Translations under genes and position numbers: made by a program
Notes under the pieces: generated by a model
The model's input: only the letters and a program-made list of their open reading frames with translations
Database searches by the model: none
Told to the model about the DNA's origin: nothing
Assembly (NCBI GenBank): GCA_907163375.1
Contig: CAJQUW010007817.1
Coordinates: 124,001-188,000, forward strand
Reading direction: 5' to 3'
Source: Prostheceraeus crozeri
Taxonomy: Eukaryota; Platyhelminthes; Polycladida; Euryleptidae
DNA: 64,000 nucleotides
Shown here: positions 22,672 to 60,512 of the stretch, one piece after another
Layout: every line of letters starts with the position of its first letter
Numbering within the stretch: position 1 is the first letter of the stretch

Positions 22672-22717
22672 TCATAAACGTAAATATTTTTCCCAAAAGT
22701 CAAATTTAATCCTAAAA

Positions 22718-30934: not shown

Positions 30935-31372
30935 CTACTGGCCTCCGTTTTCTCGTCCGAGGCTCCTTTCGCCCGCTAGAGACATTTTCGTAAAAATTCT
31001 AACTCTGTCGTTTTTCAGAGATTCCTAAAATCTTAAAGTCACTCTCAAACTTTAAGGAAGGAACGAAGAAACCGGCAGTTTCATCCACTGAATTGGTCTC
31101 ACTCCTAGCTTTAAAACGAGCTATTGCACGACTCTCTACCATCCATACAAGCCAAGATTGAAGACACTGTCCAGCGGGGGGCCAGAACTTTATCTCTCCG
31201 ATTCCGCTGGAGATCAACTCCCTAACCTAAAATTTCACGTAGAATCCGAATATGACCTCCGTTTTTACATCCAAGGCCTCCTTCACCCCACACAACTAAA
31301 CACATCCACCCACACAGACGACCAAGACATACTAGGACAGCCGACCAAGACAAACCTGGAAGGACGGCCAAG
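30935..31372 (+). repeat. Dispersed repeat family, copy 1
   Basis: Similar to the reverse complement of 43560-44105. Shared landmarks are TCTAACTCTGTCGTTTTTC, GGTCTCACTCCTAGCTT and a CCTCCGTTTT motif. The class is unknown; no poly(A) tail or tRNA-like boxes are clear. Its distal end runs straight into the minisatellite, whose unit resembles the family's own tail. Confidence 0.6.
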
Positions 31373-33022: not shown

Positions 33023-33117
33023 ACAACTCGGTGAACCATGGAAACGGGTCCTGCATTTCTGAGACTCCCCCAGGAAAATGGCCGGTGTATCAACAAGAGA
33101 AGCAAATGGAATTTTTC

Positions 33118-36941: not shown

Positions 36942-37639
36942 GACAGAAGCAACAAATTCAAAAAAGCTTCAAGCTTGTTTAATTCACTTCAAGTCAAACT
37001 AACAGTGTTTGATTCAAATCAAATTAATTGAACATATCCATGTACGTAATGTCAGATTGGTGCTATATCTTGTCCATGATAGATTTCAAAATTCCTTTGC
37101 CAATGGAATGCTACTGCATAGACTTCTAAATGATAGTAGCAATTACTTCGAAGTCTATGGCTCATGTTGGACTGATCATGGATATCCATCGACTGATTCA
37201 GGTGTAAATCGCCAATAGAACGGTCAACATAGATTTCCTAGGGCAAAATCAACTGTTAGCCTACTTTTGAAACACCTTGTATATATGTATACAAAAACAG
37301 AGTAATCAAAATGGAAATAATATAAATAGTAGAAAAAAACTCAGGAAAAAGTCATTAACTTAATTTCCAACCGGTTTCACCTGTTGATGCAGGCTATTCA
37401 TGGAAAATGAATGTATTTTAAATCAATAGCACATAATATAAAATAATACATAGAAATAAACTTAAGGTGGTCGTTCATTCAATGTGGGATGAAGGAGCTT
37501 GATCATAGCTTTTTCTTTTAGTTCGCGCTCTATTCGAGTGGCGCCTGGATGTAATTGGTAGATGGGAGCAGCCTCAAACATGGGATTCATGCCGTTCGCA
37601 CAAACAGCTATATGCCTGCTAACCTCTAAAATTCTGTAG

Positions 37640-42473: not shown

Positions 42474-43561
42474 TTAACCCTTATCCTGGCACATTTTGTA
42501 GCTTTTTGAAATTCTAAGTTAAACTAATTCAAATCCACTTGATATGGGTGGTCGATATTTCATGACAATAGCTAACTATCCTAAGGCATCTGTTTGACTA
42601 TGATCACTATCTATATTTGTTGAGCACTGTCAGACAAAACTAAGATAGCCCCTCAACCTGGTAACCGCTACATTTCGTAGCTGACGTACGTATCTGCTGT
42701 ATCTATTGATTCATGCTTCCTTCAGGCCACTCGCATCTCAATTGCAATGCGTCAATTAGCCAATAGAGTGCACGAGCTGATGCATCAGTCAACCAATCAG
42801 AGACGAACATTCTTCTACACACAGTGAATAAATGACTGCGGTGTGAGTCTACATTATTTGACAAAATGTCTCGTCGTCGCTTCGCAGCGGAAGTTGCACT
42901 CCAACGCTTACTTGAACTCGAGAACTTGAATGAATTAGACTATGTTGAAAGTGATGGTTTGGAAGAAGATTATGCTCATTTACCTGACGAAAATGCAGAT
43001 GAACAAATCAATGACGATTACGAGGGAAATGACTTCGAAGGCGACATCTAACTATTTGGAGGTGCTGAGACGGAATCCTCTGACGAGAGTGAAAATGAGG
43101 ACATGCATGTACAATCTGATAATATCGCTGATATGGTAGCAAATGGAATCATATATAGTCGTCAACCTTTCATCAATCGCCGTCGTAATCGCAATATTGT
43201 TGAAAATGAACCAAGAAGTCTTGCACACCCAAGAACTCCGAAGGAAGCTTTCCATCTATTTGTCAGTGAGGAAATGATTCGTGAAGTACTTCGTTACACA
43301 AATCGTAAAGTGTCGGACCTCAGACGTGTAGTTCCCCGCATCCGAGGGTATATGGCGAACTTCACATTCAACGAAATATGCGCTTGTATCGGAATATTAT
43401 TGAGAGCTGGCGTTGATCGCGATAACATGACGGATGCAGGGGATTTGTGGAACCCCAAGGAAGGAAGACCATTTTTCCGTGCGGTGATGTCGTCGCAGCG
43501 ATTTATATTCTTTCTCAGGAGCCTACGATTTGACAATTTTCGGGATCGGCATCAGAAGTAG
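42474..43561 (+). mobile_element. piggyBac-type transposon, 3'-truncated
   Basis: The left end TTAACCCTTATCCTGGC at 42474 is typical of piggyBac. A CCTGG...TACATTTCGTAGCT motif repeats at about 42656 as a subterminal repeat. The transposase start follows. The right part is lost at about 43556, where the dispersed repeat copy 2 begins. Confidence 0.75.
42866..43561 (+). pseudogene. piggyBac transposase, N-terminal part
   Basis: Starts MSRRRFAAEVALQRLL and has a long acidic tract, as in many PGBD proteins. One in-frame TAA lies at 43049-43051. The DDE_Tnp_1_7 N-terminal region follows (HPRTPKEAFHLFVSEEMI, RSLRFDNFRD) and ends at the truncation. The catalytic residues lie beyond the lost part. 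It is not obviously the same family as 27601-28856. Confidence 0.8.
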
Positions 43562-44105
43562 TAAGCAAGTGACAAACACCAGATAGCGCAAGATGGCCGC
43601 CATCGCTGACGTCCCCCCCCTCTGGAACGACAGAGTGTCGTGGTGGACTTGGGCGACCGCCAGGATTAGTCTTGAGGCTATAGTGTGTGATGTTTTTCGT
43701 GCAATCTGCTGAATGTTGGGTTGTAAAATGGGCTGTTTCGAGTGGAAGGAGTGGTCGGATGAGAAAACGGAGGCCAGATTCGGATTCAGCGTGAAATTCT
43801 GCATCGGTATGGTGAATTTGAACGCCATCGGAGAGAAAAATTTTCGCTGACGTCCCCCCCCCTCTGGACAGCTCGCTTCGATTTTGGCTTCCAGTGGACG
43901 GATTTAGTCGTGCCATAGCTCGTTTGAAAGCTAAGAGTGAGACAAATTCACTGAAAGAATCGGCTTGTTCCTATCTGTCTTCGTTTAGATGTGAGACGCC
44001 ATTTAAGATTTTGGGACATTGGCGAAAAACGACAGAGTTAGAATTCGGGACGTTTTGGGCTGTAGCTTCAAAACGAAGCATCGGATTGGAAAACGGATTT
44101 CAGAT
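43562..44105 (-). repeat. Dispersed repeat family, copy 2
   Basis: Reverse-complement relative of 30935-31372. It includes AACTCTGTCGTTTTTCGCC and, twice, GCTGACGTCCCCCCCCTCTGG-like GC-rich boxes near 43605 and 43845. It abuts the truncated piggyBac on the left and the R element promoter on the right. Confidence 0.6.
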
Positions 44106-44129
44106 TTGGAATCAGCTTGATGTTATTGT

Positions 44130-44272: not shown

Positions 44273-45047
44273 ATGGTAAGTCGCTACTTTCATCCCTCTC
44301 CTCCCTTGAACGTAAACTTAATACAATCTTTTCCATTTTCAGGCATCTACTCCATCTGCTACACTAGTAGGACAAAATGGCGGTCAAACGTTACAAGGTT
44401 CGCTACGGTCAGATCATCTACAACTGAGGCCAGTGGAAGAAACAACCAAGGTACATAATCCTACACCGCTACAGCGTAAATTTAAACAAGTCTTGCGTTA
44501 TGATGATCACAGCGTAGTACTCCAAACGGGAATGCTCTCTTCCACAGATGTCAAGATAATGCGCAATCAGTATGGGGACTACATACTGATCCCCGTGAGT
44601 CCGTACATTCGCCACCAACTTGATATTATTGAGGAGTACGTGACATTAAATATGGACATTCCTACTCCTCTTGCTCAAGAGTGGAAGGCTAGAGATGACA
44701 AGGATACTCCCTATAGAAAGATTTGGGATGTTAATCACATTTGCCTACCGGTATCACATTGGTGTACTTACTATAAGAAGGATGTAGATCATTCAATACC
44801 CATCAGATGTGATGAGCTCGGAGAAGGTACTTGGGATATCCTTTTCAAAGTGAATGGGCTATATTATGGTCGACACAAGGATAATAAAATAGCCTCTCTC
44901 TCCATGCATATGGAATCCATCCTATATATTCCAAAACCACCCAACGTGGATGACATAATTGATCAAATCCTTAACAGCAGTGGTACGAAGCGCAAGTCGG
45001 AGAAGAATGCTGCATCAAAACGCAAATCAAAGAAGGAGAATTACTAG
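44273..45047 (+). CDS. Leading R-element gene, unknown function, intron after the ATG
   Basis: Exon 1 contributes only the ATG (44273-44275). A 67-bp intron with GTAAGT and a pyrimidine-rich TTTTCCATTTTCAG end follows. Exon 2 (44343-45047) is open for 234 codons: ASTPSATLVGQNGG, then a globular part (QYGDYILIPVSPYIRHQLD) and a Lys-rich tail (KRKSEKNAASKRKSKK). Without the intron no good ATG precedes the conserved-looking frame. No family recognised; the basic tail suggests nucleic-acid or nuclear association. Intact. Confidence 0.65.
44276..44342 (+). other. Spliceosomal intron directly after the start codon (gene at 44273)
   Basis: ATG|GTAAGT at the 5' side and TTTTCAG|GCATC at the 3' side; 67 bp. 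It is matched in length and position by the first intron of the polymerase gene (60339-60273). Confidence 0.65.
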
Positions 45048-45081
45048 TCCTTTCCTAACTCTACCCTATGACAATTCGCTT

Positions 45082-45207
45082 ATGTGCTTTGAGTGTCGTA
45101 GACGTGGTCTTATTAGATACATTTTACTTCTTCGTTGCCATCATATCATTTGTGTATTTTGTCGTGAAAAGCATCGATGTAATTCTTCATTTTGCAATAT
45201 GTTATAG
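45082..45207 (+). CDS. Small RING-like zinc protein
   Basis: A 41-residue frame starting MCFECRRRGL, with CxxC, then CHHIICVFC and a final Cys pair, a compact C3HC4-like pattern. The same frame is open further upstream to 44959, overlapping the previous gene, so the start is uncertain. A partial RING, or a spliced second exon of the preceding gene, is possible. Confidence 0.4.
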   Translation: MCFECRRRGLIRYILLLRCHHIICVFCREKHRCNSSFCNML

Positions 45208-45258
45208 AACGTTTCCTTAGATATGTAATTTCCGTTTTAGGCTTCTATCATCATTTTT

Positions 45259-45789
45259 ATGGATTGTGAGGGTGAACCTGTACAGGAGCTCAGTGCTATT
45301 GCTATGAACAATTGGACATATCAGATTGTTAGTGTCTATCATCAACATGCCAACTGCGATCCCAATGTTGATCAATGGGCGAGAAAACACATTCATGGAC
45401 TTAATCTGAAATATTTGCAAGACTATGGCTTTTCTTGTGAGAGTGCTCTTCTTATTGACTTTAAACGATGGTTAGCTGCTTTCAATGTTATACGCATCTT
45501 TTGTAATAATCCTGGTAAGGAGAGGAAAGTATTTCCCAATCTAATCATTGATGATATTTTGCTCCCGCCTTGGGATAGTAGAGTGAATCAACATTATCAT
45601 GAAGTCACGAAACGTTTTAAGGATTTGTGTGTTCCTATTTTGTCTATTCGTTGTAGTAGCTACGTTCATAACCAATGCTTCTTTCCTCCTTACCTCAACA
45701 CTGCCAAAGTCCTGTATGGTTATCATTGCTCGCTGTATGATAGTTACCAGCTGTATCTATTTTATCTCTTTCAAACCATTGATTTATAA
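45259..45789 (+). CDS. DEDDh-type exonuclease-like protein
   Basis: Intact 176-residue ORF. FMDCEGEPVQEL at the N-terminus gives the D-x-E of Exo motif I, IRIFCNNPGKERKVF resembles the middle strand, and YHCSLYDSYQLY near the C-terminus matches the H-x4-D of motif III. That is the layout of 3'-5' DEDDh (DnaQ-like) nucleases. The middle Asp is not certain, so activity cannot be assumed. A DNA-repair or proofreading role is inference. Confidence 0.55.
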   Translation: MDCEGEPVQELSAIAMNNWTYQIVSVYHQHANCDPNVDQWARKHIHGLNLKYLQDYGFSCESALLIDFKRWLAAFNVIRIFCNNPGKERKVFPNLIIDDILLPPWDSRVNQHYHEVTKRFKDLCVPILSIRCSSYVHNQCFFPPYLNTAKVLYGYHCSLYDSYQLYLFYLFQTIDL

Positions 45790-45867
45790 TGCATGCTTGT
45801 TACCGTTATTCAATAAATGTTACTATGAGAAGAGTTGTTGTTTTCATGCAATGGATGGGTTAGATAA

Positions 45868-46287
45868 ATGGCGATCATGTCTTTCTCAAACGACTGCGGA
45901 ACATTACATTTTCATAGGCAAAGTTTAAAAGGAGCTGTTCAAGATCATGTGATAAAATTTCATAAAGATGAGACCGACATCGAAACAGTGGTCGATGATG
46001 CTAGCACTCTATTTCTAGAGTTAATGAATACATTCTCTGATAGCACTATCATGGCGCGATATGTTGCGGAAATTAAGTTTAGTCATTTTGGAAAGGAAGA
46101 GGTGGAAAGTCGCTCTTTCCATTTTGCTTCTTATTCAATGGAAGTGGTAGATCATCCCCAAGAATTTTTTAAAAGACATATGATAAAAATTGCTGAACGT
46201 CTTAACGCATTTAACCATCATGGTAGCAGTCTAGTGATTGAAGCGATTTCAGATATTCACATTCAACTTTCCATAAAGAAAAATTGA
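45868..46287 (+). CDS. Stand-alone paralogue of the polymerase N-terminal domain
   Basis: Intact 139-residue ORF. AEIKFSHFGKEEVESRSFHF ... SMEVVDHPQEFFKRHMIKI ... AFNHHGSSLVIEAISDIHI follows the same pattern as polymerase residues 80-158 (KIKYVK...IERLEFHI...VVDYESWINFHI...FNERDSGLIFDGIES). The N-terminal domain of Polinton polymerases is shared by other Polinton proteins of unknown role. The Met at 45877 is an alternative start. Confidence 0.55.
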   Translation: MAIMSFSNDCGTLHFHRQSLKGAVQDHVIKFHKDETDIETVVDDASTLFLELMNTFSDSTIMARYVAEIKFSHFGKEEVESRSFHFASYSMEVVDHPQEFFKRHMIKIAERLNAFNHHGSSLVIEAISDIHIQLSIKKN

Positions 46288-46616
46288 AAATGCAGTGGTA
46301 CTTGATTGTAGCACAACTGGTTATCGAGCTATGTCTGCTCACTCTCGAAGTATATTCCTTCTGTACATGTGTCTATTATTTAGAAAAGGCTAGCAAATTC
46401 ATATCTTCAAAAAGCTATGCCATGGACGTTACCAGTAACGGTGAAACTATGTGTTGTGATGTATGTAAGCGAAAGGATGGAAATGAAAAGCGCATCTTCA
46501 AGAGATGTAAGCATGCTTTTTGTCAACGCTGTTTCATACGTAATTGCATTCAACTTTGCAAATGTAACCACTGTGATATTGCTCATTTCGAGTGTCACTT
46601 ATGCCGCAATAGTTAG
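46284..46616 (+). CDS. RING-finger protein with N-terminal membrane segment
   Basis: Intact 110-residue ORF starting MKMQWYLIVAQLVIEL, with a hydrophobic N-terminal segment that could be a signal anchor. The second half has CCDVCKRKDG, then CKHAFCQRC and CNHC...CHLC, a C3HC4 RING arrangement. RING proteins are usually ubiquitin ligases; in large DNA viruses membrane RING proteins often act on host proteins. That role here is inference. It overlaps the preceding gene by 4 bp. Confidence 0.65.
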   Translation: MKMQWYLIVAQLVIELCLLTLEVYSFCTCVYYLEKASKFISSKSYAMDVTSNGETMCCDVCKRKDGNEKRIFKRCKHAFCQRCFIRNCIQLCKCNHCDIAHFECHLCRNS

Positions 46617-46667
46617 TACCTATGCAAATGTGGTAAAGATAGGTTTTAGCAAAGACTAACACGGAAA

Positions 46668-47018
46668 ATGGCGAAACGTAAAAGTCAAAAGTCTTCAAAG
46701 TTTTCTTCAGCTATTCAAGCTCTCTGACGAATGAAAGCAAATCAGCGATACAATGCTATACGACATGCTAACGATAAATTCATTTGTGAAATTATTTCTC
46801 ATGTGAGGAAGTTGAGGACGAAGAAATTAGCGCCAAAACAACGAAAGTTACTGAAGCGATATGCTACGAAATTGCGTTTCATCTCCAATCCTAAAGTCAC
46901 CCTTCAAAGAAAGAGGAAAACTCTAACACAAAAGGGCGGTTTCCTTTCAGCAATACTTCCAATGATAGCTCCTGCCGTGGGCAACCTATTGGGTAATATC
47001 TTTGGCTCTAAGCGTTAA
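46668..47018 (+). pseudogene. Conserved Polinton GGFL protein (putative membrane-active virion protein)
   Basis: A 116-codon frame starting MAKRKSQKSSKFSS with one in-frame TGA at 46725-46727. The middle is basic (KKLAPKQRKLLKRYATKLR). The end is QKGGFLSAILPMIAPAVGNL, a Gly-Gly followed by a hydrophobic amphipathic helix. This type of short protein, with 'KRK..L.QKGGFL', recurs just upstream of the ATPase in Polintons. Gly-Gly could be a site for the element protease (inference). Confidence 0.65.
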
Positions 47019-47049
47019 TTATGCAAATGTTGAATCTCAAAGTAATAAA

Positions 47050-47667
47050 ATGGATTTCAGACTTCAATGTGATAAAGTTCTGACTGTATCAGGTCCATCT
47101 CATGCAGGTAAAACTGTTTTCACGCTGAATTTATTGGATAAAAGAAGGGAGTTGTTTAAGGAACCTATCAATCGAGTGATTTGGTGTTATGGTATTTATC
47201 AACCGTCGCTGTTTCAGGAATTGCAAAGTCGCAACTTTATTTGACATGAAGGAATTATTCCAGTGGATAAACTTCAGTCTAATGATGTTGTTGTATTGGA
47301 TGATTTATTAAAACAAAGTAAGAATTCAAAAGATGTTACAGATATGTTCACTCGCGCAGCACACCATAAAAGGTGCTTTATCATCTATATCACACAAAAT
47401 TTGTTTCCTGATGGAAAAGAAGCTCGTACACGAAACCTGAATACACACTATTATGCTATTTTCAAGAATCCGCGAGATAAAAGTCAATTTGAAATTTTAG
47501 CGCGACAAGTTGCACCCAGAGGATCAAAAGCCTTAATTGAAATTTTTCAAGCAGCTACTGAAAAACCACACGGTTACTTATTCATTGACTTTACGCAAGA
47601 GTGTCCGGAAGAATTTAGATTTCGAAGTGATATTTTGAAAACTCCCATGATTATCTACAAACTATGA
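47050..47667 (+). pseudogene. FtsK/HerA-type packaging ATPase
   Basis: Starts MDFRLQCDKVL. Walker A is SGPSHAGKTVF (residues about 17-26), Walker B VVVLDDLLKQS, and a sensor-like YITQNLF follows, as in adenovirus/Polinton genome-packaging ATPases. One in-frame TGA lies at 47242-47244, right after NFI. The rest is intact to 47667. Met at 47050 is chosen because the longer frame from 47002 overlaps the preceding gene. The stop overlaps the next start by 4 bp. Confidence 0.9.
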
Positions 47668-48296
47668 GTTCTTATTCTCGCATGATTGTTATTCCTCAGG
47701 ATGAATATGTACAATTGACTGCCATGCAGCAAGTAAAGCAACCTCCACATCGTGCTGTATTATTACAATCGGAAACTGTTGAGCAATTGAAAAACTTGAA
47801 GAATAAGATGCGTTACTCTGTATCGACTGCTACACCTTTAGCATCTCGCGCACATGCCATATCTCTTTTCAATAGTATTGAACCCCATCTCAATGTAAAT
47901 GATAGAGGAGAAATCATTACAGATGAAAATAAAGTGATTGATGCTTCACGTTATGAAGACTTGATTCAGTATGCAACACGTAGAAAGCGCCGTCAGGGCT
48001 ATGTTCCACCTGGTTGGACAGACTTTCTTAAACTATTGAAAAAGCATAATGTGCCAAAATTTGCTTTAAATAATGAGACATTGAAAGAACTTGATTCAGC
48101 AGTGGCTACTGCTCCAATGCTTCAGACGATGAAAATGCCAACAAATTGGTTTAAGTCGTCACCTGCTACATCCCCTCCCACACTCACTAAGCAAACAAGA
48201 GGAAGAACTCGACGTAGATCTACATCACCGCTAAAACTAGTAAAAGGAAAACGTAAAACAGCTCCTCCCAGGAAATACATGTTCTCAGACTATTAA
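47664..48296 (+). CDS. Conserved Polinton protein of unknown function
   Basis: Intact 210-residue ORF. MIVIPQDEYVQLTAMQQVKQ, AVLLQSETVEQLKNLKNKMR and YEDLIQYATRRKRRQ are hallmarks of a family that recurs next to the ATPase in animal Polintons. The C-terminus is basic and Ser/Thr/Pro-rich (RGRTRRRSTSPLK). Probably a virion or packaging factor (inference from neighbours). Confidence 0.7.
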   Translation: MSSYSRMIVIPQDEYVQLTAMQQVKQPPHRAVLLQSETVEQLKNLKNKMRYSVSTATPLASRAHAISLFNSIEPHLNVNDRGEIITDENKVIDASRYEDLIQYATRRKRRQGYVPPGWTDFLKLLKKHNVPKFALNNETLKELDSAVATAPMLQTMKMPTNWFKSSPATSPPTLTKQTRGRTRRRSTSPLKLVKGKRKTAPPRKYMFSDY

Positions 48297-48297
48297 T

Positions 48298-48513
48298 ATG
48301 AAGCAGATGTGTTGCTTACCATGTAATGAGCCGCCAGAGGTGAATGTCGTTGTCACTTGCACTTCCTGCGCCAGCTCTCATAATGAAACCCCTAAGCAAT
48401 GTGAACACGATCGCAAAACCGCTAAAGCTAAATGCTGCAGTTGTTGTAAATGTAGAAAGGCAAGAAAACAAAAAGATGAGAAGGAGGAAAAAGAGTCAGT
48501 CGTCATCGACTGA
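48298..48513 (+). CDS. Small cysteine-rich protein
   Basis: Intact 71-residue ORF starting MKQMCCLPCNEPP. About a dozen Cys, including CTSCASSHN and CCSCCKC, then a charged tail. Its 3' end overlaps the integrase start in another frame. Metal binding is likely; no family recognised. Confidence 0.45.
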   Translation: MKQMCCLPCNEPPEVNVVVTCTSCASSHNETPKQCEHDRKTAKAKCCSCCKCRKARKQKDEKEEKESVVID

Positions 48514-49564
48514 ACGTTTGAAGTCAATCTATTATGATGTAAAACATCCGGCAGGATTTGCATCTATCAAGAAATTATCAAAAGCGAGTGGTCTTCCACA
48601 ATCACAAGTGAAATGATGGTTAAAGGGTCAGGCTACCTATACACTCCACAAACAAGCGAAAAAGAAGTACCGCACCCGTCATTATATTGTTCATGACATC
48701 GATGAACAGTGGCAAGCAGATTTGTGCGATGTCGCCTCCATTTCAAAACATAACTCGGGCAATAATTTTATTTTAACCGTCATTGGTATTTTCTCACGTT
48801 ATGCGTGGGCTCAACCTTTAAAAACTAAAGAAGGGAAAGGAGTAGCAAAAGCATTCCAAACAATTTTTCGAGAAGGTCGGATTCCAAAAAGAATTCAGAG
48901 TGATCAAGGAAAAGAGTTTGAAAATCAGCATGTGCGAAGATTATTTGAGAGGCATGACATTGAGTTGTTTAGTGTAAAGAGTGCTTATAAAGCTGCACTC
49001 GTTGAACGTTTTAATCGCACATTAAAAAATCGCTTGTGGCGACATTTTACTGCCAACTTGACACAAAATTGGACAAAGGTTCTACAAGATACACTCCATG
49101 CCTACAATCACTCTATCCATCGTTCTATTGGACTCAGACCAGTAGATGTAAATGCTGACAATGTAGATAAAGTGCGCGAATCATTCCAACGTAAACGCAC
49201 TCATGTGAAAAGTGATGTGAAAATTGCCGATAAAGTTCGTATCTCAAAAGTGAAAAGTGTTTTTGCTAAAGGGTACCTTCCGAATTGGACAGAGGAGGTA
49301 TTTACAGTATCAAGGATTAATCAAAAAGACTCTCCGACCACCTACAAGTTGAAAGATTACGATAATGAAGAAATTGAGGGTAGCTTTTACCGCGATGAGA
49401 TTGAGGTAGTCACTGAAAGTGAAACATATTTGGTAGAGAAAGTCATTCGATGTAAAAAACGGCAAGGTGAGGAATGGTGTCTTGTTAAATGGACTGGTTA
49501 TCCTTCAAGTATGAACTCTTGGATGCATCGTGCCGACATCTTTCATCTAAGTGATCGACAGTGA
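48476..49564 (+). pseudogene. Retroviral-type integrase with C-terminal chromodomain
   Basis: A 363-codon frame. Starts MRRRKKSQSSSTERLK; an HTH-like GFASIKKLSKASGLPQSQVK segment is followed by a TGA at 48614-48616. The rve core follows: EQWQADLCDV (Asp), QSDQGKEFENQ (Asp) and VERFNRTLKN (Glu, about 33 residues on). The C-terminus has YLVEKVIRCKKRQGEEWCLV and KWTGYPSSMNSW, a chromodomain that could target histone marks. Only the one stop breaks it. The ORF from 48722 alone is an artefact of that stop. Confidence 0.9.
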
Positions 49565-49605
49565 TTCATGCAAAGTTGTAACTAACAATGTTTAGGGTTT
49601 GAGCT

Positions 49606-50061
49606 ATGAATCCAACTACCTCATTTTATTCACGACCCTCCTATGTAAGTGGTGGAGGACAAATTTACATCGGCGCTCGCCGCCAACGTGGAGGTAGCAT
49701 ACTTGGTGCACTGAAATCTGTTGTAGCACCTCTCATATCCAATGTCGGTAGATCTTTAAAACGAAATGTTTTAGGTAATGCCGTTGGCTTTGCTGGTGAT
49801 GTTGCTAGTGATCTTTCCAGAGGTAGAAGTTTTAAGAGCAGTTTGTTGAATCGTGGGAAGGAACGCGGTTTAAAAACATTGAAGCAGACCTTTGCTGGTG
49901 TTACTCAAGGAAAGAAATCACCTAAACGAATGAATAAAGGAAGGAGGAAACATCGCGGAGCTGGTAAGGTGCGATCTTCAGTCAAAAGGCATTCACGCAA
50001 ACGTCGTAGAGGCTCTAATCATTCATCAGGCGCTAAACGACGACGCTGCTATAACTTCTAA
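49606..50061 (+). CDS. Basic minor virion protein upstream of the capsid gene
   Basis: Intact 151-residue ORF. After YVSGGGQIYIGARRQ comes GGSILGALKSVVAPLISNVG, an amphipathic hydrophobic segment, then NAVGFAGDVASDLSRGR and a very basic C-terminal 60 residues ending AKRRRCYNF. Similar proteins precede capsid genes in Polintons and adintoviruses and may combine membrane-active and DNA-condensing parts, like adenovirus pVI and pVII/X. Gly-Gly sites could be protease targets. Start and stop sit 2 bp from the capsid gene. Confidence 0.65.
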   Translation: MNPTTSFYSRPSYVSGGGQIYIGARRQRGGSILGALKSVVAPLISNVGRSLKRNVLGNAVGFAGDVASDLSRGRSFKSSLLNRGKERGLKTLKQTFAGVTQGKKSPKRMNKGRRKHRGAGKVRSSVKRHSRKRRRGSNHSSGAKRRRCYNF

Positions 50062-50063
50062 TC

Positions 50064-51341
50064 ATGGAGTGTAAAACTTCCGGTTTTTGTTTGTTCGATC
50101 AACAAGCCATACAGACAGATATTCTTAGTTCAAGTATTGTAGATTATCATCCTCGAACAGCTGAGAATGCTGGCCCCATTGAATTTGTTATTCCTGGTGG
50201 TAGTGATGACTACATAGATTTGAGTTATGCGATGCTTGATTTGAGGTTTAGAATTCAGCAAGCAGATGGAACTGCTATTGATGATGCACATAAAGTTGGA
50301 CTGAACAATTTACCATTGACTACATTACTTCGCGATGTTTCTCTAACGATTGGATAGCAGCAGGTAGAAGGTAGTCAAAGCGATTATCCCTATAAATCAT
50401 ATTTCAATCATGTATCACAGTTTCATCCAGCAGCACAAAAAAGTCATATGGAAGCCATGGGATGGTACAGAGATGAAGCAGGAAAATTTGATGTTGAAAC
50501 AAACAGTGGCTTTGTAAAGCGATCTGCTATGATTAAAGATAGTAAAGTATGTCAGCTATATGGTCCGCTGAATTTAGACTTCTTTAGACAGTCAAAGTTT
50601 TTACTCTGTAATACCAGCATGCGACTCAAGCTGACATTGAATAAGCCTGAATTTGCGCTGAATGCATTTGCTAAAGTTGACAATTTTAGAATTCATGTGG
50701 AAGATATTGCACTTTACATTCGTCGAGTAGTACCGAATCCAAGTGTCATTAGAGGGCATGCTGAAGGCCTTAACCGCCAAAATGCCATTTACCCCGTTCA
50801 GCATACAAAGCTTCTCACCTTTACAATTCCGAAAGATCAAAAGAGTTTCATGAAAGATGGCCTCTTTCCATCGGAAGCACCGAAGCTCCTCATGGTGGCA
50901 ATGGTTGAAAATGATGCATTTAATGGTAATATAAAGAAGAATCCTTTCAATTTTAAACACAATCAGTTAAGTGAAATTGCTTTACGTGTAAATGGTGTGA
51001 GTCATCCTGGTCCACCCTACAAACCAGATTTTGCTTCGGATCAATTTATGCGCAGTTATGTTGATTTTATGGATGTCTTTGGCTTTTACAATACGGATGA
51101 CATCAACGGACTGACTATGAAAGAGTTTAAGAGTGGATATACTATTTATGCATTTGATTTGACTGCTGACAGCGATATTAGTGCACCCTATCGTCAAGCG
51201 AACGTGCCTCATAATATTCGTTTGGATTTGACGTTCAAAAGAACACTACCTGAGACGATCAATGTATTAATTTATGCAGTCTTCGATTCAAATATTGAAA
51301 TTACAAAGTATCGTGACTTGATTCTTCAGTATAATCGTTAA
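50064..51341 (+). pseudogene. Major capsid protein (Polinton double-jelly-roll; F54H12.2-like)
   Basis: A 426-codon frame starting MECKTSGFCLFD. IEFVIPGGSDDYIDLSYAML, NLPLTTLLRDVSLTIG, YPYKSYFNHVSQFHPAAQKS and DLTFKRTLPETINVLIYAVF are typical of the protein annotated in nematode genomes as F54H12.2, recognised as the Polinton capsid protein. One in-frame TAG at 50355-50357 (a CAG-like context: GG-TAG-CAG-CAG) is the only defect. The stop overlaps the protease start as TAATG. Confidence 0.9.
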
Positions 51342-51802
51342 TGAGTTGGTTGACTGCTGACGATATTAAGACTAAAGTGCAGCGTAATGCAGACGAAGCG
51401 ACGTTGAAAGCTTTCGATAATGTCTATTCACTCGATACCTTACCACCTGCAGTAAATCACTATCCCATCTTTATTGTGCTAAACACTCATTCGCAGAATT
51501 TAGGCGGTGAGCATTGAAAAGCGATCTTTATTGGAGAAGACCGACGTGGTGAACTATTTGACTCTCTTGCTCAACCTCCAAATATACCAACACAGCAGTG
51601 GTTGAGAAAACATACGCGTCAATATCAGCGAAATGAACGCATACTACAACATCCACTTTCATCAACGTGTGGTGCTTTTGTACTGTACTTCATCTTAAAA
51701 CGTTTACATGTATCTCGATTTGCATCTATTATTCAAAACTTTTCATGTAATCCATCCTCTAATGAAAAAATGATTTGTAAGTTCTATCATGATTTGAAAT
51801 AA
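51341..51802 (+). pseudogene. Adenain-like cysteine protease (R)
   Basis: A 153-codon frame starting MSWLTADDIKTKV. LGGEH (His) is followed at once by TGA (51515-51517), where related proteases have Trp. RGELFDSLAQPP (Asp) and LSSTCGAFVLYF (Cys) follow. It matures virion proteins. Only the single stop interrupts it. The start overlaps the capsid stop. Confidence 0.85.
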
Positions 51803-51832
51803 AAACATCATGTTGGAAAAATTGTTTTTTAT
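51797..51832. terminator. Shared polyadenylation region of two converging transcripts
   Basis: AATAAA overlaps the protease stop on the plus strand (about 51798), and AATAAA on the minus strand lies in TTTTTTATTTTAC at about 51826. The 41-bp gap between stop codons serves both directions. Confidence 0.6.
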
Positions 51833-51843
51833 TTTACAATCCG

Positions 51844-52374
51844 CTAGGTACGTACATACTCAATGAGATAGTCTAGGATCACATTTGCTTGTACATGAGA
51901 TTTTAGTCCAGTAATGATCACTTTACTATTATGAAAGATTGCCACATGCACAGGTAACCAACAACTAATGAGAGCTGCAGGAAAAAGTTCGGGTTCATAA
52001 CACAAATTGTTATTGCTGGTACGAATCTTCAAAAATGATAGACTGTCACTCAATTGAGTAGAGATCACCATATTGTCCACAGTCAGATTCGACATCACAC
52101 ACCTCTCCCTCTTCCATATCCGACGTAGTAGTCTTTGTAGCTCTAAGCGCATTGACTGCGCCGATAAATGAGAAAGGGCGCCGAGAATCTGTACAGTCCC
52201 ATTTGGGAAGAGTTGAAGATTCCGTGAATTGTTCATCTTCACCACTAACATTTGAGGTCGGCCCGGGTAATACTTGCTGTTTGGAAGGTGTTTGTGCAAT
52301 GTTGTGAGATCGATTTTGGTGTAGAGTCTGAAGCGACGGAGAATGTTGACGATGGTGTAGCGATGGCGCTTCAT
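51844..52374 (-). CDS. TATA-binding-protein-like (TBP-fold) protein
   Basis: Intact 176-residue ORF from MKRHRYTIVNILRRF, about the length of a TBP core. Repeat 1 (residues about 5-88) has IVNILRRFRLYTKIDLTTLH, PNSKYYPGRPQMLVVKM, and LQLFPNGTVQILGALS. Repeat 2 (about 95-174) has LTVDNMVISTQLSDSLSF, CYEPELFPAALI and FHNSKVIITGLKSHVQANV. The order and spacing copy the two saddle repeats of TBP, including the YEPELFP and the SGKVVxTGxKS-type strands. TBP binds TATA DNA and recruits RNA polymerase; the element's own promoters have TATA boxes. The upstream part of the ORF (to 52518) overlaps the neighbouring gene and is left out. Confidence 0.75.
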   Translation of the reverse strand: MKRHRYTIVNILRRFRLYTKIDLTTLHKHLPNSKYYPGRPQMLVVKMNNSRNLQLFPNGTVQILGALSHLSAQSMRLELQRLLRRIWKRERCVMSNLTVDNMVISTQLSDSLSFLKIRTSNNNLCYEPELFPAALISCWLPVHVAIFHNSKVIITGLKSHVQANVILDYLIEYVRT

Positions 52375-52696
52375 GATGAAAGAATGAGTAAATTGAGCGA
52401 TGTACCTTTCTTTTATACTTTTCCCAACTACCTTGATGAAATGTGAAGTTAGTATGAAGTTGGGAATGATAGAGTTGAATTCGCCGATTGTTGAGGCGCA
52501 GCCAGATGCGATTTCCAATACGTGAATGTCTTTTCATATAGAAGTATTTCAACTCCTTCATGATATGATGTAGAGATTGAAAATGACGATAAGATAAAGC
52601 AAACTCTCTTCTCACATTTCCAGTTGAATCTTTGAAATAGACGTTTCGATCATGATCCGTTTCAATACGTTGTAGGGAATCTAATTTCCAACTCAT
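52046..52696 (-). CDS. PC4-like DNA-binding protein 1, overlapping the TBP-like gene
   Basis: 216-residue ORF starting MSWKLDSLQRIETDHD. The first 105 residues are paralogous to the next gene: FKDSTGNVRREFALSYRHFQ, SLHHIMKEL and SWEKYKRKVHRSIYSF. The GIxLTxxQFxxL-like strand-helix resembles the PC4/p15 single-stranded-DNA-binding fold, though weakly. The C-terminal 109 residues are Ser/Thr/Gln-rich with an acidic patch and overlap the TBP-like gene in another frame; either dual coding or a lost stop. Confidence 0.45.
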   Translation of the reverse strand: MSWKLDSLQRIETDHDRNVYFKDSTGNVRREFALSYRHFQSLHHIMKELKYFYMKRHSRIGNRIWLRLNNRRIQLYHSQLHTNFTFHQGSWEKYKRKVHRSIYSFFHHEAPSLHHRQHSPSLQTLHQNRSHNIAQTPSKQQVLPGPTSNVSGEDEQFTESSTLPKWDCTDSRRPFSFIGAVNALRATKTTTSDMEEGEVCDVESDCGQYGDLYSIE

Positions 52697-52718
52697 GGTG
52701 CGTGGTAGTCATGTCTGA

Positions 52719-53087
52719 TTAAGATTTGCATAGTAGGGCGATGAACTCACGACGAATAAATGTCATGATGGAGCGATGTATGTATCTTCTATACTTCTCC
52801 CAATTGTATTTGCGAAATGAGAAACAGTTTGCGGAATGAGAATGGCAGATTTGAATTTCATTTCTGTTATGTTGAAGCCAAACTTGATCACCCAAGGAGA
52901 TGAATCTTAATGTTTCAAAATATTCCAAATCCCTCATGATATCATTGAGGTTGACAAATTGTCGCCATGTTAATGTAATACCTCTTGATGTATGACCATG
53001 AGAATTTTTGAAATGTACGTTTCCATCACGATCAACTCTGATATATTGTAGAGAGTCCAAAATCCAAGTCTTCATGATGTTATGCAA
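52719..53087 (-). CDS. PC4-like DNA-binding protein 2 (paralogue)
   Basis: Intact 122-residue ORF starting MHNIMKTWILDSLQYI. RVDRDGNVHFKNSHGHTSRG, ITLTWRQFVNLNDIMRDLEY and WEKYRRYIHRSIMTF align end to end with paralogue 1. GITLTWRQF resembles the KGISLTxxQW strand of PC4. Tandem duplication is clear; the PC4 link is tentative. It lies head to head with the structural gene at 53111, with only 23 bp between the start codons. The Met at 53072 is an alternative start. Confidence 0.5.
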   Translation of the reverse strand: MHNIMKTWILDSLQYIRVDRDGNVHFKNSHGHTSRGITLTWRQFVNLNDIMRDLEYFETLRFISLGDQVWLQHNRNEIQICHSHSANCFSFRKYNWEKYRRYIHRSIMTFIRREFIALLCKS

Positions 53088-53110
53088 AGCCGCAGATCAG
53101 CAATATAAAA

Positions 53111-54508
53111 ATGTCGTTTTATCATATTTTGCTTAGCAATGTGGCTATAAAGAGATTCGCTAGTAATCGAGTCGCACTCTTTTCTACTCCCATTGATCAT
53201 ACACAACAGCTAAATGGAAATTGGGAAGTGGGTGTCACTCAACTTGTTTATAGCAACTGTGTCTATACTTTTGATCATGAGGTAATGACTATTAATATGA
53301 GGCGTACAGCTGCTTATCAATGTGAAAAGGGGTGCCGAGTATACATTCCACAGTGGCCAAAGAAAGATCTCTTATCATGTAAAAAGTTTATATATGATTT
53401 CTTGAATAAAGCGTGTAAACATATTGTCCAATTTACTCCGCACAATGATGATCATAATTATGTACATCATGTAGTTGAGAAAGATTGGATTGTTGGTTTA
53501 AGTCCAAGTTTAAGAAATGATTTAGGTTACCTCGCTAGCGCCTTAACAAGCTATGATAATTTTAACGTTAATTACCACATAAGTGGTCATAAACAGTTAA
53601 TATATCGAGAGGAAGCTTATTATGTAGATCTTATTCCAAAAAATGAGAAGACGTTGGTGAAGAAGATTGTGATTAAGCCAAGAAAGACAAACATGACTCC
53701 TGAAACATTATTGGTGAAATTTAATTATCTCCTTCGAGTTGATGGTAAACAAGTGGCAACATTGACTTATATCAAATCATCTAATCATATTGCAATAAGT
53801 AAATTAAATGATGATGATCTAGTATTAGTTTGTTCAAAAGATTTTCATCAGTTCTTACGACATCGTTCTGCAGCTGTTCATGGAAAATCTGATATGCAAC
53901 ATTTACCATGTGAAAGGCCAAATCAATTTGATACAGAATGGACCGTATCTTTATACAGAAAGTGTGTAGAGCCTTTCGGTGGTATCTTACATGAAACAAG
54001 AGTGTTGATGCCTCGCATTATTACTTCGGTTAAATTGGTTGTAGATTATTTAAATGAAGTGATTAATAAGCAACATATTTCATTTTCTGAAAAAGAAGGT
54101 ACTTTGTCTCTCACTATAAGTGGAAAAGGTATTGAACTAATTATGGATAAAACTCTAATGGACATTTTGGGTTTTGATCAAAATATCTTTAAAAGTGGTA
54201 CTGTAACCAAAGCTAGCGGAGACATGTCGCTATCCCGTCGTATTAACTATTTTCAGATATATTCCAATATTGGTGAAGATGTACGTGTGGGAGATGTTGA
54301 AGCTCCATTGCTAGCAATGATACCATACCAGCCAAAAAGCTGCAGTATTTTATCTGAGCATACTTTCAAGAAAGTGCATTGTACAAAGCTGAAATCAAAC
54401 TACATCCCACAAATTGATAGTGCCATTTATGATGATGCTGGTGCGTTGATTCCTTTTCATAAAGATGCTGTGACAAGTATCACACTCCATTTCCGAATGA
54501 AGAGTTAA
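53111..54508 (+). CDS. Large Polinton structural-type protein, WEVG family, copy 1
   Basis: Intact 465-residue ORF. It starts with the pattern IDHTQQLNGNWEVGVTQLVY and ends with the family signature: MDILGFDQNIF, FQIYSNIGEDVRVGDVEAPL and PFHKDAVTSITLHFRMKS. This beta-rich family is widespread in animal Polintons and its function is not established; a spike or penton-associated role is plausible. It is followed 40 bp later by a paralogue. Confidence 0.65.
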   Translation: MSFYHILLSNVAIKRFASNRVALFSTPIDHTQQLNGNWEVGVTQLVYSNCVYTFDHEVMTINMRRTAAYQCEKGCRVYIPQWPKKDLLSCKKFIYDFLNKACKHIVQFTPHNDDHNYVHHVVEKDWIVGLSPSLRNDLGYLASALTSYDNFNVNYHISGHKQLIYREEAYYVDLIPKNEKTLVKKIVIKPRKTNMTPETLLVKFNYLLRVDGKQVATLTYIKSSNHIAISKLNDDDLVLVCSKDFHQFLRHRSAAVHGKSDMQHLPCERPNQFDTEWTVSLYRKCVEPFGGILHETRVLMPRIITSVKLVVDYLNEVINKQHISFSEKEGTLSLTISGKGIELIMDKTLMDILGFDQNIFKSGTVTKASGDMSLSRRINYFQIYSNIGEDVRVGDVEAPLLAMIPYQPKSCSILSEHTFKKVHCTKLKSNYIPQIDSAIYDDAGALIPFHKDAVTSITLHFRMKS

Positions 54509-54547
54509 TGCAAAAGTATGCTAATATATTTTTCCAATGTGAATAAT

Positions 54548-56068
54548 ATGGAAAGTGAAAATAAGGACTCGTTTCTAATCTACTTGCCCAGTAATGCTTC
54601 TATGAATAAATTTCCCAAAAATAAACCATCAGACTATCGAGTAGAATTAAATCGCCCACTGAATTTAGAAGGTGAATGGGAGGTTGGCGTTTCTAGTATT
54701 TGCTATGATAGCAATATTCAGAATGTGAATGATTTGGAAGAAATGATATTGACTCCTCGCACCCATGATGGAATAACGATGAATAATGCATTCCAGTTCC
54801 CATACAATTTAACATCAGATGGAAAGTGGAACTATGAATGGATTCAGATAAAATCAGATTCTTATGAACCATTTGGGAATGAGAAAATTATTAAGGCATT
54901 CAACAGTGGTAATACTTCCATCATGAAGAATAAAAATTAGAAAGCTTATGAGTTTACTATCTATCATTGGAGTGGGAGACAGTTCCTCCGCTTTCATTCT
55001 TTTACTAAAGGTCTTACGCTGAGGTTGGATAATGAATTCTATCCACATCTTGGTTTTGGTCATGGACTACATCTAACGTCAATTGCTACTGCAAATGTTA
55101 AAAAAGTTTATTCAAATCGAATCAACAAATTTCATTATAGATTTAAAATATTTGATGAAGATGTTGTAGAATGCGATGAACGCATCATTTTGAAAAAGCG
55201 TGGTGTTCAACCTTTATCACTTATTGAGTTAGTAAAACGATGGAATGAGACTGTGGGTAAGAAGTATGGAGAGAAAATTATGGCGGACAAAAATAAGTTG
55301 GTCATTCAGAAATATAATGACAAACTTACAGTTTATTTCTCTCCAACCTTGCGTCATTTTGTAAGACATTATACACCTATTATTGGAAGCGGTGTGGTGT
55401 ATGCTTCTCATGAATATCACACTAAAGCTGATTCAGTTAATGATGAATGGTGGGTGGACATCTATGGCGATCGCATCAAGAAAATTTACCACTCTTATGA
55501 AAGATCTAAAGTTGCTATCAATATAATGCCGCGTCTATATCATACAGTTGAAAGCTTCATTCATGTAGTAAATCCTTATATGCAACAGAAGTTGAAGCAT
55601 GTGATGAAAAGTAAATATGATGTAAAGACACACCACATTTCGTTTTCAATTGAAAATCAACGCGTTGTTCTGAAACTGGGTGATGACATTCAATGTCAAT
55701 TGAGTAAAAATTTGAAAAAAATCTTTGGTTTTTCAATGCTACAAACTGTGTTTGCTGCTGCGCATACGATTGGTATAGAAACACCAATGACACTTGATAA
55801 ACATGAACAGCACCTTTACATTCAAAGTGATTTGATTCTACCTATTTCTGTTGGTGAGAAAAAAGAATACATTTTGCGTGATTTCATTCATGATAAAGAC
55901 GCTTCATATGGAATAGTCGAGAAGATGTTTGAATCTATTTTCTATCATCCCGTCGTCAAACAAACTATATCCTCTATTGCTATCAAAATTACCAATGGTT
56001 TACAAGAGTGCATCCATGTGAAAGATACTAAATCCCTCGTAACTTTAGTGTTTCGGAAAACAAAGTGA
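54548..56068 (+). pseudogene. Large Polinton structural-type protein, WEVG family, copy 2
   Basis: A 507-codon frame starting MESENKDSFLIYLPSNASMN, then LNRPLNLEGEWEVGVSSICY, a TAG at 54938-54940, and a clean frame to 56068 with KNLKKIFGFSMLQTVF and HLYIQSDLILPISVGEKKEY. It is a paralogue of copy 1, diverged to low identity, so the duplication is old. One nonsense codon is the only defect. Confidence 0.65.
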
Positions 56069-56231
56069 AGTCTTTATACAACATTTATTGAAATATGTAC
56101 ATGAATGTGAAGCAATAGACTTTATACAACATCCACTGAAAATATATACATGAGCGCACTTCAATAAACATTGCTATATACAAAAAGTCTTTTTACTTCG
56201 TGAAGGGTGGAAATATACAGGGATAGGAAAA
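56069..56231. terminator. 3' region with short duplication and AATAAA
   Basis: GACTTTATACAACATCCACTG repeats (as GTCTTTATACAACATTTATTG) about 45 bp apart between 56072 and 56155. AATAAA lies near 56164. Likely polyadenylation region of the preceding gene. Confidence 0.5.
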
Positions 56232-56400
56232 ATGTCTTTCAGTGGAAAAGTCATCACATGGGGAATGTACAGATGTGGACACATATTCACGAGGAAAAAA
56301 CAATCTCATGCGATACATAAAACAACAATGTTTATCTACAGAAATCAACATCAAAATACTAAGTTAAGGATGATTATGCTAAGACGTCTCCTGAATGTGG
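56232..56400 (+). pseudogene. Zinc-finger fragment resembling the polymerase N-terminal finger
   Basis: MYRCGHIFTRKKQ (frame shifts by one base in the A run) reproduces the CGHIFTRK of the polymerase finger encoded near 60100 on the other strand. It lies next to the polymerase 3' end. Probably a diverged inverted duplicate of the polymerase 5' coding region or a lost zinc-finger gene. Confidence 0.45.
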
Positions 56401-59400
56401 TAGTGTGGGTTTAATTCTTTTGGATGGTGGTATGCCTGTATCAGGATGTCCATGTGGAAGAGATATGTTATGTCCTATCCAACACCTCTTATCCTCCCAT
56501 GCTGAAAGCGCCCGTTTCTTAAAAGTATAAGTTTTGATCTCATGCGACTTAGATTTTAAGATTGTCATATTGACAAACGTTATATTTTTATTTCTATAGG
56601 CTCCCTTGAAATTCTTATGTTTCATGATTTGCACAATGGATTTGATATGCCTTTAGCGCGCTTAATGCTATCATCACTATCCTTTAATTTCATAGAATAC
56701 ATTTTAGGGCGGAGGAGAATCATTTCAGCTATCTCCTTCCCTGCTGTTTCATCCTGAAAACAACCAAGTTTGGCCTTATTTTTGATGGAGTATAGTGGAT
56801 GATCAGCAGGATAATTTGATCTATCAAAATATCTTTCTAAAGATTTTCCTACTTCATTAAAATTTAAATCTTTTTGAGTGGCAATACCTAAAAAGAAACT
56901 ATCTGTGTCACCACCCAACAAACGAACCTCTTTTACGAGAGGACACGGTTTTAGTATTTTATAGAAGAGTTGATACATTTCAAGCTTGGAGTAATCTAGA
57001 ACAGCTTGACCAATATAGATGGGTTTGCACAACTCAACTTCAGATTTTATCATTTTAATACCTACAAGATCCTCATCGATTATGTCTCTATCGATGAATA
57101 GAGGTGATGAGGTCAATTTGTGATACTTTTGATCATCATTAACTAGTTTGTAGTTTACGCGCTTTCTAACATCCTCCATCGTCTTACCAAATAGACTGTT
57201 GTTCTTATATTTATAAAAATCTTTTTCAAAATTATTTTGGGCGAGTGCACGTTTCTGGCTGTTACTATCTATGTAGGGTTTGAGGAAGGCTTTCTGTCTA
57301 AATTTAATAATGCGGTGAACTCTTTTTAAAATCATGCCCATTTCTAAATAAAATTTTAAGATGCTAAAGTGGACTAGATAGTTTTCTTTATCATATTGAG
57401 TGAGCAAAAGTTTGCGGCAAGGCTTATACTTGGGTTGTTCACATGATTCTAAATCTTTATGAAATTGTTTCATAAAGTCGGAAACATATCTTTACTCACT
57501 TCACCTGATTCGGGTGCGAGTGGAAAATCTACGGTTTTATGTTTAATATTATTTGGATAGATTAGATCTATCTCAAAATAATATTCCCAATCACCTTCAT
57601 CTGGAATTGCTAGTATGTTAGAAGGGTTGGAGAAATGTTGAATTTCACTATCATCTAACCAGCTAAACTCAGAGTGAGGTAGCGGTTTGGATAATGAACT
57701 ACCATACAAATTATTTTGATCATAATACTTAAGATGGGTATGATCATTACCTACTGTTTCAGATTTTAACCTATGTTTATTTACAAATGTGAGACCACCG
57801 CGAATTCCTCGCTCAAATAAATTATACATCTCTGGATCTTGTAAGAGATGAATGGTCTCACCAGTCATTTTAAAAGCAGACTTAAATGATATGGCTGGTA
57901 GACTGACAAAGTGGACGCGATCTAACTTATCTTCTTCTAATGCCACTCGTCGAAACTCCTGAAATACATCAGCCAGCAAAAATACATCTAACTTAAGGTA
58001 GGCAATCATATATTCGCCAAATGTATGGCAGTCAAATTTTATCCATGCATCTTGTGCATGATCATAATCTTCAGTCTTACATTCTGCGCCGGTCAAATCA
58101 TTTTTAAATTTATCTATGGGCGGAAGAGAAGTCTCGCCGAGTTTACTAATCGCATCAAAATATGCATATGGAAAGACTCCTTTCCGTGTGATGACTTCAT
58201 CGGTTAGATTTGGATATTGTTTCTTAAGATTTTGTGTTAGTGGAAGAGACTTTAGATTTTGTACGAGAGAGGCCAGTGATGCAGTCATAAATTGGTAGGA
58301 ATCTAAAAATTTTATATCAAAATAGACCGTCTTATTTGATTTAGTTTTATCGACAGGCACTTTTGCTGTCATGGCCATAAACTTCTCTCTCGTTTGTGCT
58401 ATTACATCAAGCTTCCACTCTTTCATTTGACCTAAACCTCCTTTTATTATCATATGGCTGTCGTAGCCCTTGAAATTATGGAAAATGACGGGTAATGTAC
58501 GCCGTTTCATCCTAAGTGAAAAATTGCATTTTGAACAGAGTGCGTTTCTAAATTTACCAGTGATGTGATCATGGTCGCGCACTTTCTTAATCTTATCATC
58601 GTCAAATGTTTTCCTACATTTGGGGCAAACGCTGCAACTATCAAATTTTGCTTGATCATCTGCTGTCATATGCAATGATCTGCGATAGAGTTCACCATCA
58701 TGTTTTTGTTGAAATTTTACAGCCTGTTCGAGGAATTGTAGGAATTGGTAAATACAATCCTCACCTTGCCAGAAGCGCATTTTATTTTGCCTACTCCTAA
58801 AGTGATCATGCCATACTTCATAGCAGGAAATGGCTGCTGGTCGATGGATGTTATCATCGATATAACATTCGATGTCAGCATAGATGACACGAAGAGGACT
58901 TAGTTCATCGCCATTCTCTCTATATGAAAACTCCTTATCTTTGGGCATGCGTTCCATTTGCAGTTTAACTCGCTTACACCACTCATAATGAGTTTCAAAT
59001 TTAGTTTTCCTCCTAAAGTGGCGAATACATCTGTCGCAGTAATATAACTCTCTACTAGAGTTTTCTAAGTGGTGGTATAAGCGAGAGATTTTGGGAATAC
59101 CGCAGTAGTGCCATTCCTCACTATCATTCTGTTTTACTAATAACAGGTTTACTGTACGTTCATAACAACTCGAACGCGAGTTGTAGCACACACCCTTCAA
59201 TCCTTTTTCCCAAACATGGAGAACTATTTTAATGTTGTTCAATTTTTCAAATTTTTCTATATCTTTAATTTTCATATCGTCACTATTACAGTCATCGAAG
59301 TTTAATTCATTCTCCCACTGCCTATAGCTATATGTGCTATTTCGATTCGCATTGATGTCATTATAGTGGTGATTGGAGAGGACAGCATATTTAAAACATT

Positions 59401-60152
59401 GCGATTCGCAATCGACATTGATGACTGCTGTTTTGTTTTTTAAATTTTTTGGAAGTTTAAAGGAGCCTCGACCACTATGATTTCCTAATAAACTGATTTT
59501 AAATAAGGCGGACTCAATGCCGTCAAAAATGAGACCGCTATCGCGCTCGTTAAATTTATCAATACTTAATTTTAATCCTTGGATGTGAAAATTTATCCAA
59601 GACTCATAGTCTACAACCTCGGTTGCAGGAGAGGAGGGTATGTGAAACTCCAACCTCTCTATTATTTGTCCAGTATGGTGGTCGATTTTTACATATTTTA
59701 TTTTAAGATAGATGAGCGCCTTCATCCTAAAATTGTCTAAATTGTTGAAGAGCGCTTCTATCAATGATGAATTTTGATGAAACCATTCCTCAAAGTTAGC
59801 AATGGTTTCTGAGGAGTCCATCTGGTAGTTCCTCACTAAATTATTTATGGACACTTCAGTGAGTCGGATAGAGGAGGTGCCGTTGGTGTAGGTATCGTTC
59901 GTGTGTGTATGTTGAAGTCTGTGCGAAGATAGTTCAAAACGTGTCTCGAAAGACTGAGCGCACAAGTCGCAAGAAAAGGAGACGACGTTAACAGAATCAT
60001 CCCCACCTTCGAGATTGATGCCGGCTTAGGTCGACAAACACCTCGCTTGATGTGTCGGGTGAGATCCCATTTCCTCGTGAAGATGTGCCCACAGTCAGCA
60101 CATTCCCACTCGTTGCCATGTCGCGACAGTTCTGAGGTGGAACTCACATCAC

Positions 60153-60211
60153 CTGAAAGAGAAATCATTCTATCATCTCTGTTCAAGCCTCAGTGTATTG
60201 TTACAACCTAC
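60153..60211 (-). other. Polymerase intron 2
   Basis: CAAG|GTAGGT ... TTTCTCTTTCAG|GTGATG; 59 bp. Splicing joins phase 1 ends in the frame that leads into the first zinc finger, which supports it. Confidence 0.65.
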
Positions 60212-60272
60212 CTTGACTCAATAACTCTAAACTTTCCTCGAGAAGGGAGGGCGTTGGTGATGAAGTTGATGC

Positions 60273-60339
60273 CTGAAATTGAGGAAGATGCTATTAGCCA
60301 CACGTTTGAGGGAGATGAGAGAGGAAATCTTCAACTTAC
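60273..60339 (-). other. Polymerase intron 1, directly after the start codon
   Basis: ATG|GTAAGT ... CCTCAATTTCAG|GCATCAAC; 67 bp, the same length and position as the intron at 44276-44342. The exon it opens into begins GCATC in both genes (Met then Ala-Ser-Thr). Confidence 0.65.
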
Positions 60340-60512
60340 CATTTCAACGAAATCAAGATTAAGGTTGATACTTCAACAAGATAGAGACTTCACTCAAATT
60401 TGGAATTCACGAGATAGCAGTTCACTTGTACACCTCAAATAATAACAGAATTCGCTAGAGAACACTTCACTTATACGTCTCAAAGACAGCGCGAAATGAT
60501 ACGGATGTCACT

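Follow-up and report, generated by a model that had tools for sequence, protein, structure and literature searches.

The window analysed here, by which we mean the whole 64,000-nucleotide stretch of the polyclad flatworm Prostheceraeus crozeri (contig CAJQUW010007817.1, positions 124,001 to 188,000), holds a copy of a virus-like mobile element, and in that element lies a gene for a protein of the TATA-binding protein (TBP) family, an open reading frame (ORF) of 176 amino acids at 51844..52374 on the minus strand. The original prediction, made from the letters of the sequence, had claimed that both TBP repeats can be read in this frame, and both are indeed present, NGTVQILG as residues 58-65 and CYEPELFPAAL together with NSKVIITGLKS in the second half. 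The similarity is far beyond chance: the Pfam TBP profile (PF00352) matches in two stretches at E 1.6e-20 with 73.2 bits against a cut-off of 22.9, and TBP chains in the PDB match by sequence, to E 4.5e-13. The AlphaFold2 (AF2) model is a confident TBP fold, and together with fold searches it recovers the saddle of two alpha-beta repeats, the outcome that had been named beforehand as a check.

A search of 5.8 billion proteins returned 60 homologues of the ORF (E 2.7e-86 to 3.5e-14), and PF00352 is matched by all 61 family members at E up to 0.001. The lowest identity among the members is 32%, the identity to cellular TBP core domains, archaeal and eukaryotic, is 20-27%, and that to human TBP is about 20-21% by structural alignment. 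The TBP identity of the ORF is thereby supported by profile, fold and family. Conservation of this frame rather than of the one overlapping it had been raised as a further check, and it is the TBP frame that is kept in the 60 homologues; the overlapping 216-amino-acid ORF resembles its neighbour only outside the overlap.

The element that hosts the gene is of the Polinton/Maverick type, a setting supported by terminal inverted repeats (TIRs), by a target duplication of 6 bp seen in one copy and by motifs of a type B DNA polymerase (PolB). Its features in the window are the following.

43557..44120, no strand: AGTAGTAAG terminus plus TIR sequence marking the element's left end, placed by comparison with L013 and with the C2020 and C5929 copies
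47344..47667, plus strand: packaging-ATPase-like protein, C-terminal piece
49606..50061, plus strand: basic core-protein-like ORF
50064..51341, plus strand: putative gene for a hexon-type major capsid protein; in the window copy its frame is interrupted between 50357 and 50448
51341..51802, plus strand: putative adenain/Ulp1-like cysteine protease gene, with an in-frame stop in the window copy
51844..52374, minus strand: TBP-family protein (PF00352, PDB TBPs by sequence, AF2 model and fold searches, genome copies)
52046..52696, minus strand: 216-amino-acid ORF, a paralogue of the 118-amino-acid protein over its first ~107 residues, the remainder overlapping the TBP ORF in another frame
52719..53075, minus strand: 118-amino-acid protein, tentatively of a PUR-alpha/Whirly-type nucleic-acid-binding fold
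53082..53088, plus strand: ATGCAAA site, a speculative target box, 29 nt upstream of the start at 53111
53111..54508, plus strand: "WEVG" protein of 465 amino acids, a divergent neighbour (ORF list; no Pfam match)
54518..54940, plus strand: second WEVG-type ORF, 140 amino acids (ORF list; no Pfam match)
56622..59821, minus strand: putative protein-primed-type PolB carrying an endonuclease VII domain; its frame is interrupted near 57470, leaving two open pieces

In the window copy the left end lies at 43557, and the right end and right TIR lie past 64000. The C2020 copy is about 21.2 kb long and the C5929 copy about 22.3 kb; the former has termini AG...CT with the target duplication ATCCAA on both sides, and the latter has TIRs and a repeated flank, its right end differing slightly. 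In the window copy, the terminal repeats contain tandem units of about 487 bp, and the right terminal repeat (L013, C6492:187500-193500, ~935-6001) shows some ten of these, matching the left end at 97-99% in an array that may extend beyond the fetched stretch.

The genome comprises 2.05 Gb in 14,165 contigs, and the best 150 of 11,831 first-look candidates for the TBP gene are all full length, stop-free and 97-100% identical, a figure that is uninformative on decayed copies because only the best candidates were scored. Eight loci, the window copy and seven others, were compared, and the order of capsid, protease region, TBP and two PUR-like genes is kept in 8/8. The TBP ORF has 181 amino acids in the seven other copies, the window ORF stopping five codons sooner. 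Compared with L002 over 3.5 kb, the other copies reach 96.9-98.3% identity, with L004 split in two. Some frames are not open: L005 and L007 have a fragmented capsid gene, and L004 and L005 a shortened protease frame.

The setting had been called Polinton/adintovirus-like; the Polinton label is supported, and membership in Adintoviridae would be tentative. Adintoviridae are characterized by an integrase with a chromodomain and a PolB with an OTU-like domain, according to the available text of PMC11071296, and the Pfam scans, which covered part of the element's frames and pieces, revealed no rve integrase. The element has in common with Polintons/Mavericks and adintoviruses the TIRs, the 6-bp target duplication, the PolB motifs, a weak protease match and a putative capsid gene; it is unlike them in the lack of an integrase in the scanned frames and in its TBP, none being mentioned in the searched text of PMC11071296.

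The element family departs from cellular TBP (PF00352) at particular residues, mapped onto yeast TBP over 61 rows with a numbering and residue roles that we assume. Of the residues that we take to be the four DNA-intercalating phenylalanines (F99, F116, F190 and F207), three are kept (F116 and F207 in 61/61, F190 in 60/61), and F99 is replaced by P in 57/58 ungapped rows, for which reason we file the protein as a TBP-family variant and not as a canonical TBP. The presumed TFIIB-contact stirrup residues are those of canonical TBP (E186 60/61, E188 61/61, L189 54/61), and N69 (49/49 ungapped rows), N159 and V161 (61/61 each) and T215 (60/61) are likewise kept. The N-terminal lobe is further altered at V122, which is Q in 61/61, at T124, which is L in the element protein and L, M or F in 61/61, and at L114, which is Q in 57/61.

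For comparison, 12 other viral loci (IMG/VR L016-L027, 10 distinct sequences) have mostly a canonical N-lobe DNA face, with F99 as F, V122 as V and T124 as T or S in 10/12 each, and they group apart from the element family. A tree was built from 35 rows, namely 22 family members out of 61, ten further viral sequences and three cellular ones (the host's own TBP lying outside the comparison), and in it the element family forms one side of a 100/100 branch with lengths of 0.89 + 1.88 on the midpoint's two sides. Because of the residue counts, the comparison with the other viral proteins and this branch, we read the change as old, family-specific among the compared rows and strongest in one DNA-binding lobe.

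Viral TBPs are already known in giant viruses, mirusviruses and herpesviruses. Those of giant and large uncultured viruses (e.g., Heterosigma akashiwo virus 01 and the IMG/VR loci above) likewise represent a virus-encoded TBP fold, the likeness of the named giant-virus proteins being one of fold alone, and the contigs of the IMG/VR loci measure 17-175 kb as compared to 21-22 kb for the element. The partial text of PMC10132985 gives TBP in 59% of mirusvirus genomes; this is a phylum of large viruses, and its likeness to our case is by published report. Beta- and gammaherpesviruses also encode TBP mimics: the Kaposi's sarcoma-associated herpesvirus (KSHV) protein ORF24 contacts host RNA polymerase II (Pol II) and directs it to viral late genes (PMC7498053, available part), and UL87 of human cytomegalovirus (HCMV) binds TATT (PMC8360532, available part). 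ORF24 has an extra N-terminal Pol II-binding domain (same part of PMC7498053), as compared to the bare TBP core of the element protein, and the herpesvirus fold matches, ORF75 and U58, are proteins of 440 and 1005 residues.

By computation, then, the protein has a two-repeat TBP fold, belongs to a distinct conserved family and lies inside a multicopy, TIR-bounded element. The reading we favour, at a probability of roughly 0.6, is that this element, of the Polinton/Maverick type, carries the gene for a promoter-recognition factor of its own from the TBP family, and it suggests that the element is able to steer the host transcription machinery to its own genes via an altered TBP. With the herpesvirus mimic as a working model, the C-terminal lobe would bind and kink a TATA-like box in its first half, in the manner of cellular TBP, the conserved stirrup Glu-x-Glu-Leu would recruit host TFIIB and hence Pol II, and the rewritten N-terminal lobe would alter how the second half of that box is recognised. 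Pol II might in this way be biased toward the element, giving the element's genes an advantage over those of the host, perhaps during one stage of the cycle. The PUR/Whirly-type neighbours may act as single-strand-binding cofactors in transcription or replication. A bolder version, which we put forward tentatively and rather doubt, is that this Polinton lineage possesses a promoter-switching module in which the N-lobe-rewritten TBP reads a private core promoter (perhaps TATGCAAA-like) and, with the PUR/Whirly-type cofactors, builds a viral pre-initiation complex on host Pol II.

The same residues bear on two unlikely alternatives. The protein might be a decoy or inhibitor that sequesters TFIIB or TBP partners of the host, or obstructs the host's promoters, and starts no element transcription; kept TFIIB contacts beside an altered N-terminal DNA face would suit it, but a pure decoy has no need of both Asn, 3/4 intercalating Phe and most of the C-lobe DNA contacts, all of which are kept across a deep family. 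Somewhat less likely still is a DNA-bending factor of replication or packaging, its TBP fold acting at the terminal repeats, with no role in transcription. The adjoining, tentatively PUR/Whirly-type proteins could in that case be single-strand-binding replication proteins, but the stirrup residues for TFIIB are invariant or nearly so, which a mere bender would not require.

A recent capture of a host TBP or TBP-related gene appears very improbable. Membership of the TBP family is in its favour, and the host must possess a TBP; the low identity to human TBP, the members as divergent as 32% and the long 100/100 branch that separates the family from the cellular and viral TBPs in the tree speak against it. 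Virtually no weight remains for a chance ORF laid over a true 216-amino-acid gene on the same strand: the two frames do overlap by 329 nt, but the profile match, the confident TBP model and the 60 homologues in the TBP frame refute it.

Several observations weigh against the reading of an element-encoded promoter-recognition factor. The C-terminal lobe is altered as well, with L205 as A, T or S in 61/61 and V213 as I in 43/61 and M in 12/61, and K138, presumably a TFIIA-side position, is variable in the family. Within 120 nt upstream of 18 element gene starts, TATAAA and TATTAA occur at 2/18 each, and no hexamer before these starts exceeds random start sets. The most enriched heptamer there is ATGCAAA, with five of its eight occurrences within 44300-60500 (besides the site at 53082..53088, before the starts at 46622, 49568 and 54508 on the plus strand and 52731 on the minus strand), an enrichment equalled by 5/150 random start sets; as a target box it would be a speculative lead. 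In the window copy the protease is interrupted, the capsid and PolB frames are broken and the TBP is five codons short, and with several of its genes broken this copy is itself unlikely to be functional. The gene context of the homologues, lastly, rests solely on identical nucleotide values for the longest contig, the relatives' DNA context not being readable.

On such values, a TBP and a PUR-like homologue have the same longest contig of 1771 nt (P0002, P0063), and PUR-like and capsid homologues agree at 12876 nt (P0062/P0067) and 11119 nt (P0065/P0068). Among the matches listed, TBP and capsid homologues agree at 7106 nt (P0009/P0145) and 20463 nt (P0020/P0182), two cases that point only indirectly to TBP in further elements. 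When all 60 TBP values are set against the 120 listed of 282 capsid homologues, these two in common are not unusual, at least two arising in 12/100 shifts; on contigs above 5 kb, a length cut picked after the first result, 2/14 are in common, an overlap seldom reached by chance, with 2/1,000 shifts giving two. Relatives were found neither in IMG/VR with P0001, A1 or the capsid alignment A3, nor in GTDB contigs with A1 or A3, nor in phage records. The capsid homologue P0068 (87% identity) has an NCBI entry under a metagenome-assembled genome of Pseudomonadota, probably a contaminant contig.

Polintons are regarded as lying near the origin of many DNA viruses of eukaryotes and, on the established view, depend on the host for transcription. 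A conserved private TBP in an element of 21-22 kb would mean that a factor for core promoter recognition is within reach of even small elements, and it would be a candidate reason for the high copy number of the element. It would also offer a compact system for how one altered TBP lobe changes core promoter choice and, if the promoter-switching module proves true, a counterpart of the TATT system of herpesviruses in a virus-like element that measures only ~21-22 kb. No report of a TBP in a Polinton, Maverick or adintovirus was found in the open-access literature covered, which does not include the founding adintovirus paper, PMC8502044, nor is one reported in the available parts of PMC10675990, PMC11464507, PMC10132985, PMC11071296 and PMC11071308. 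Several viral fold matches carry no protein name and could include a relative.

With regard to the neighbouring genes, the capsid and protease genes lie left of TBP on the opposite strand, and to its right follow the two minus-strand paralogues, the plus-strand WEVG ORFs and the minus-strand PolB. The capsid, protease and ATPase are placed less firmly than the TIRs, target duplication and PolB motifs. The capsid label is our assumption, without a named match; 110 of the 120 homologues listed, of 282, have 416-436 amino acids. The protease frame is open for 153 amino acids in 5/7 other copies, its L002 version matches Pfam C48 (E 0.0012) and C5 (E 0.012), both under the cut-off, and the protease S273R of African swine fever virus is matched at E 0.03. 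The core-protein and packaging-ATPase labels are likenesses that we presume by eye, the former with no credible match in the Pfam scan and the latter with none at E up to 0.01. The 216-amino-acid ORF is 42% identical to the 118-amino-acid protein, and its Pfam result is a sub-threshold Nudix_hydro only (E 0.089 in the window copy, 0.018 in that of L002).

In the PolB region, DxNNLYG, NSLFGK and GGDTDS are readable, motif names that we assume; Pfam Endonuclease_7 matches at E 3.8e-7, and the PolB frames give no match to the Pfam PolB domain at E up to 10. By eye, the element also contains an ORF with an exonuclease-like DCEGEPVQELSA start (45259-45789) and a small cysteine-rich RING-like ORF (46290-46616), both with no Pfam match at E up to 0.01. 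An inverted 24-nt match (56274-56297 / 60070-60093) is 92% complementary, its second arm lying within a C2H2 zinc-finger ORF.

Elsewhere in the window, a second virus-like repeat family occupies 6135-8492, 15621-16516 and 22646-24293, with near-identical ORFs at 7501-7923 and 23871-24293 and, by eye, a phospholipase-A2-like stretch at 6135-6704; close to this family is an integrase-like (rve) ORF at 25758-26219, also by eye. Judged in the same manner, 12988-14688, 36069-36968 and 43052-43561 are ORFs of a Penelope-like reverse transcriptase with a GIY-YIG end, a mariner-like and a piggyBac-like transposase, and 31332-33089 is a GC-rich minisatellite-like array in which several frames are open on both strands.
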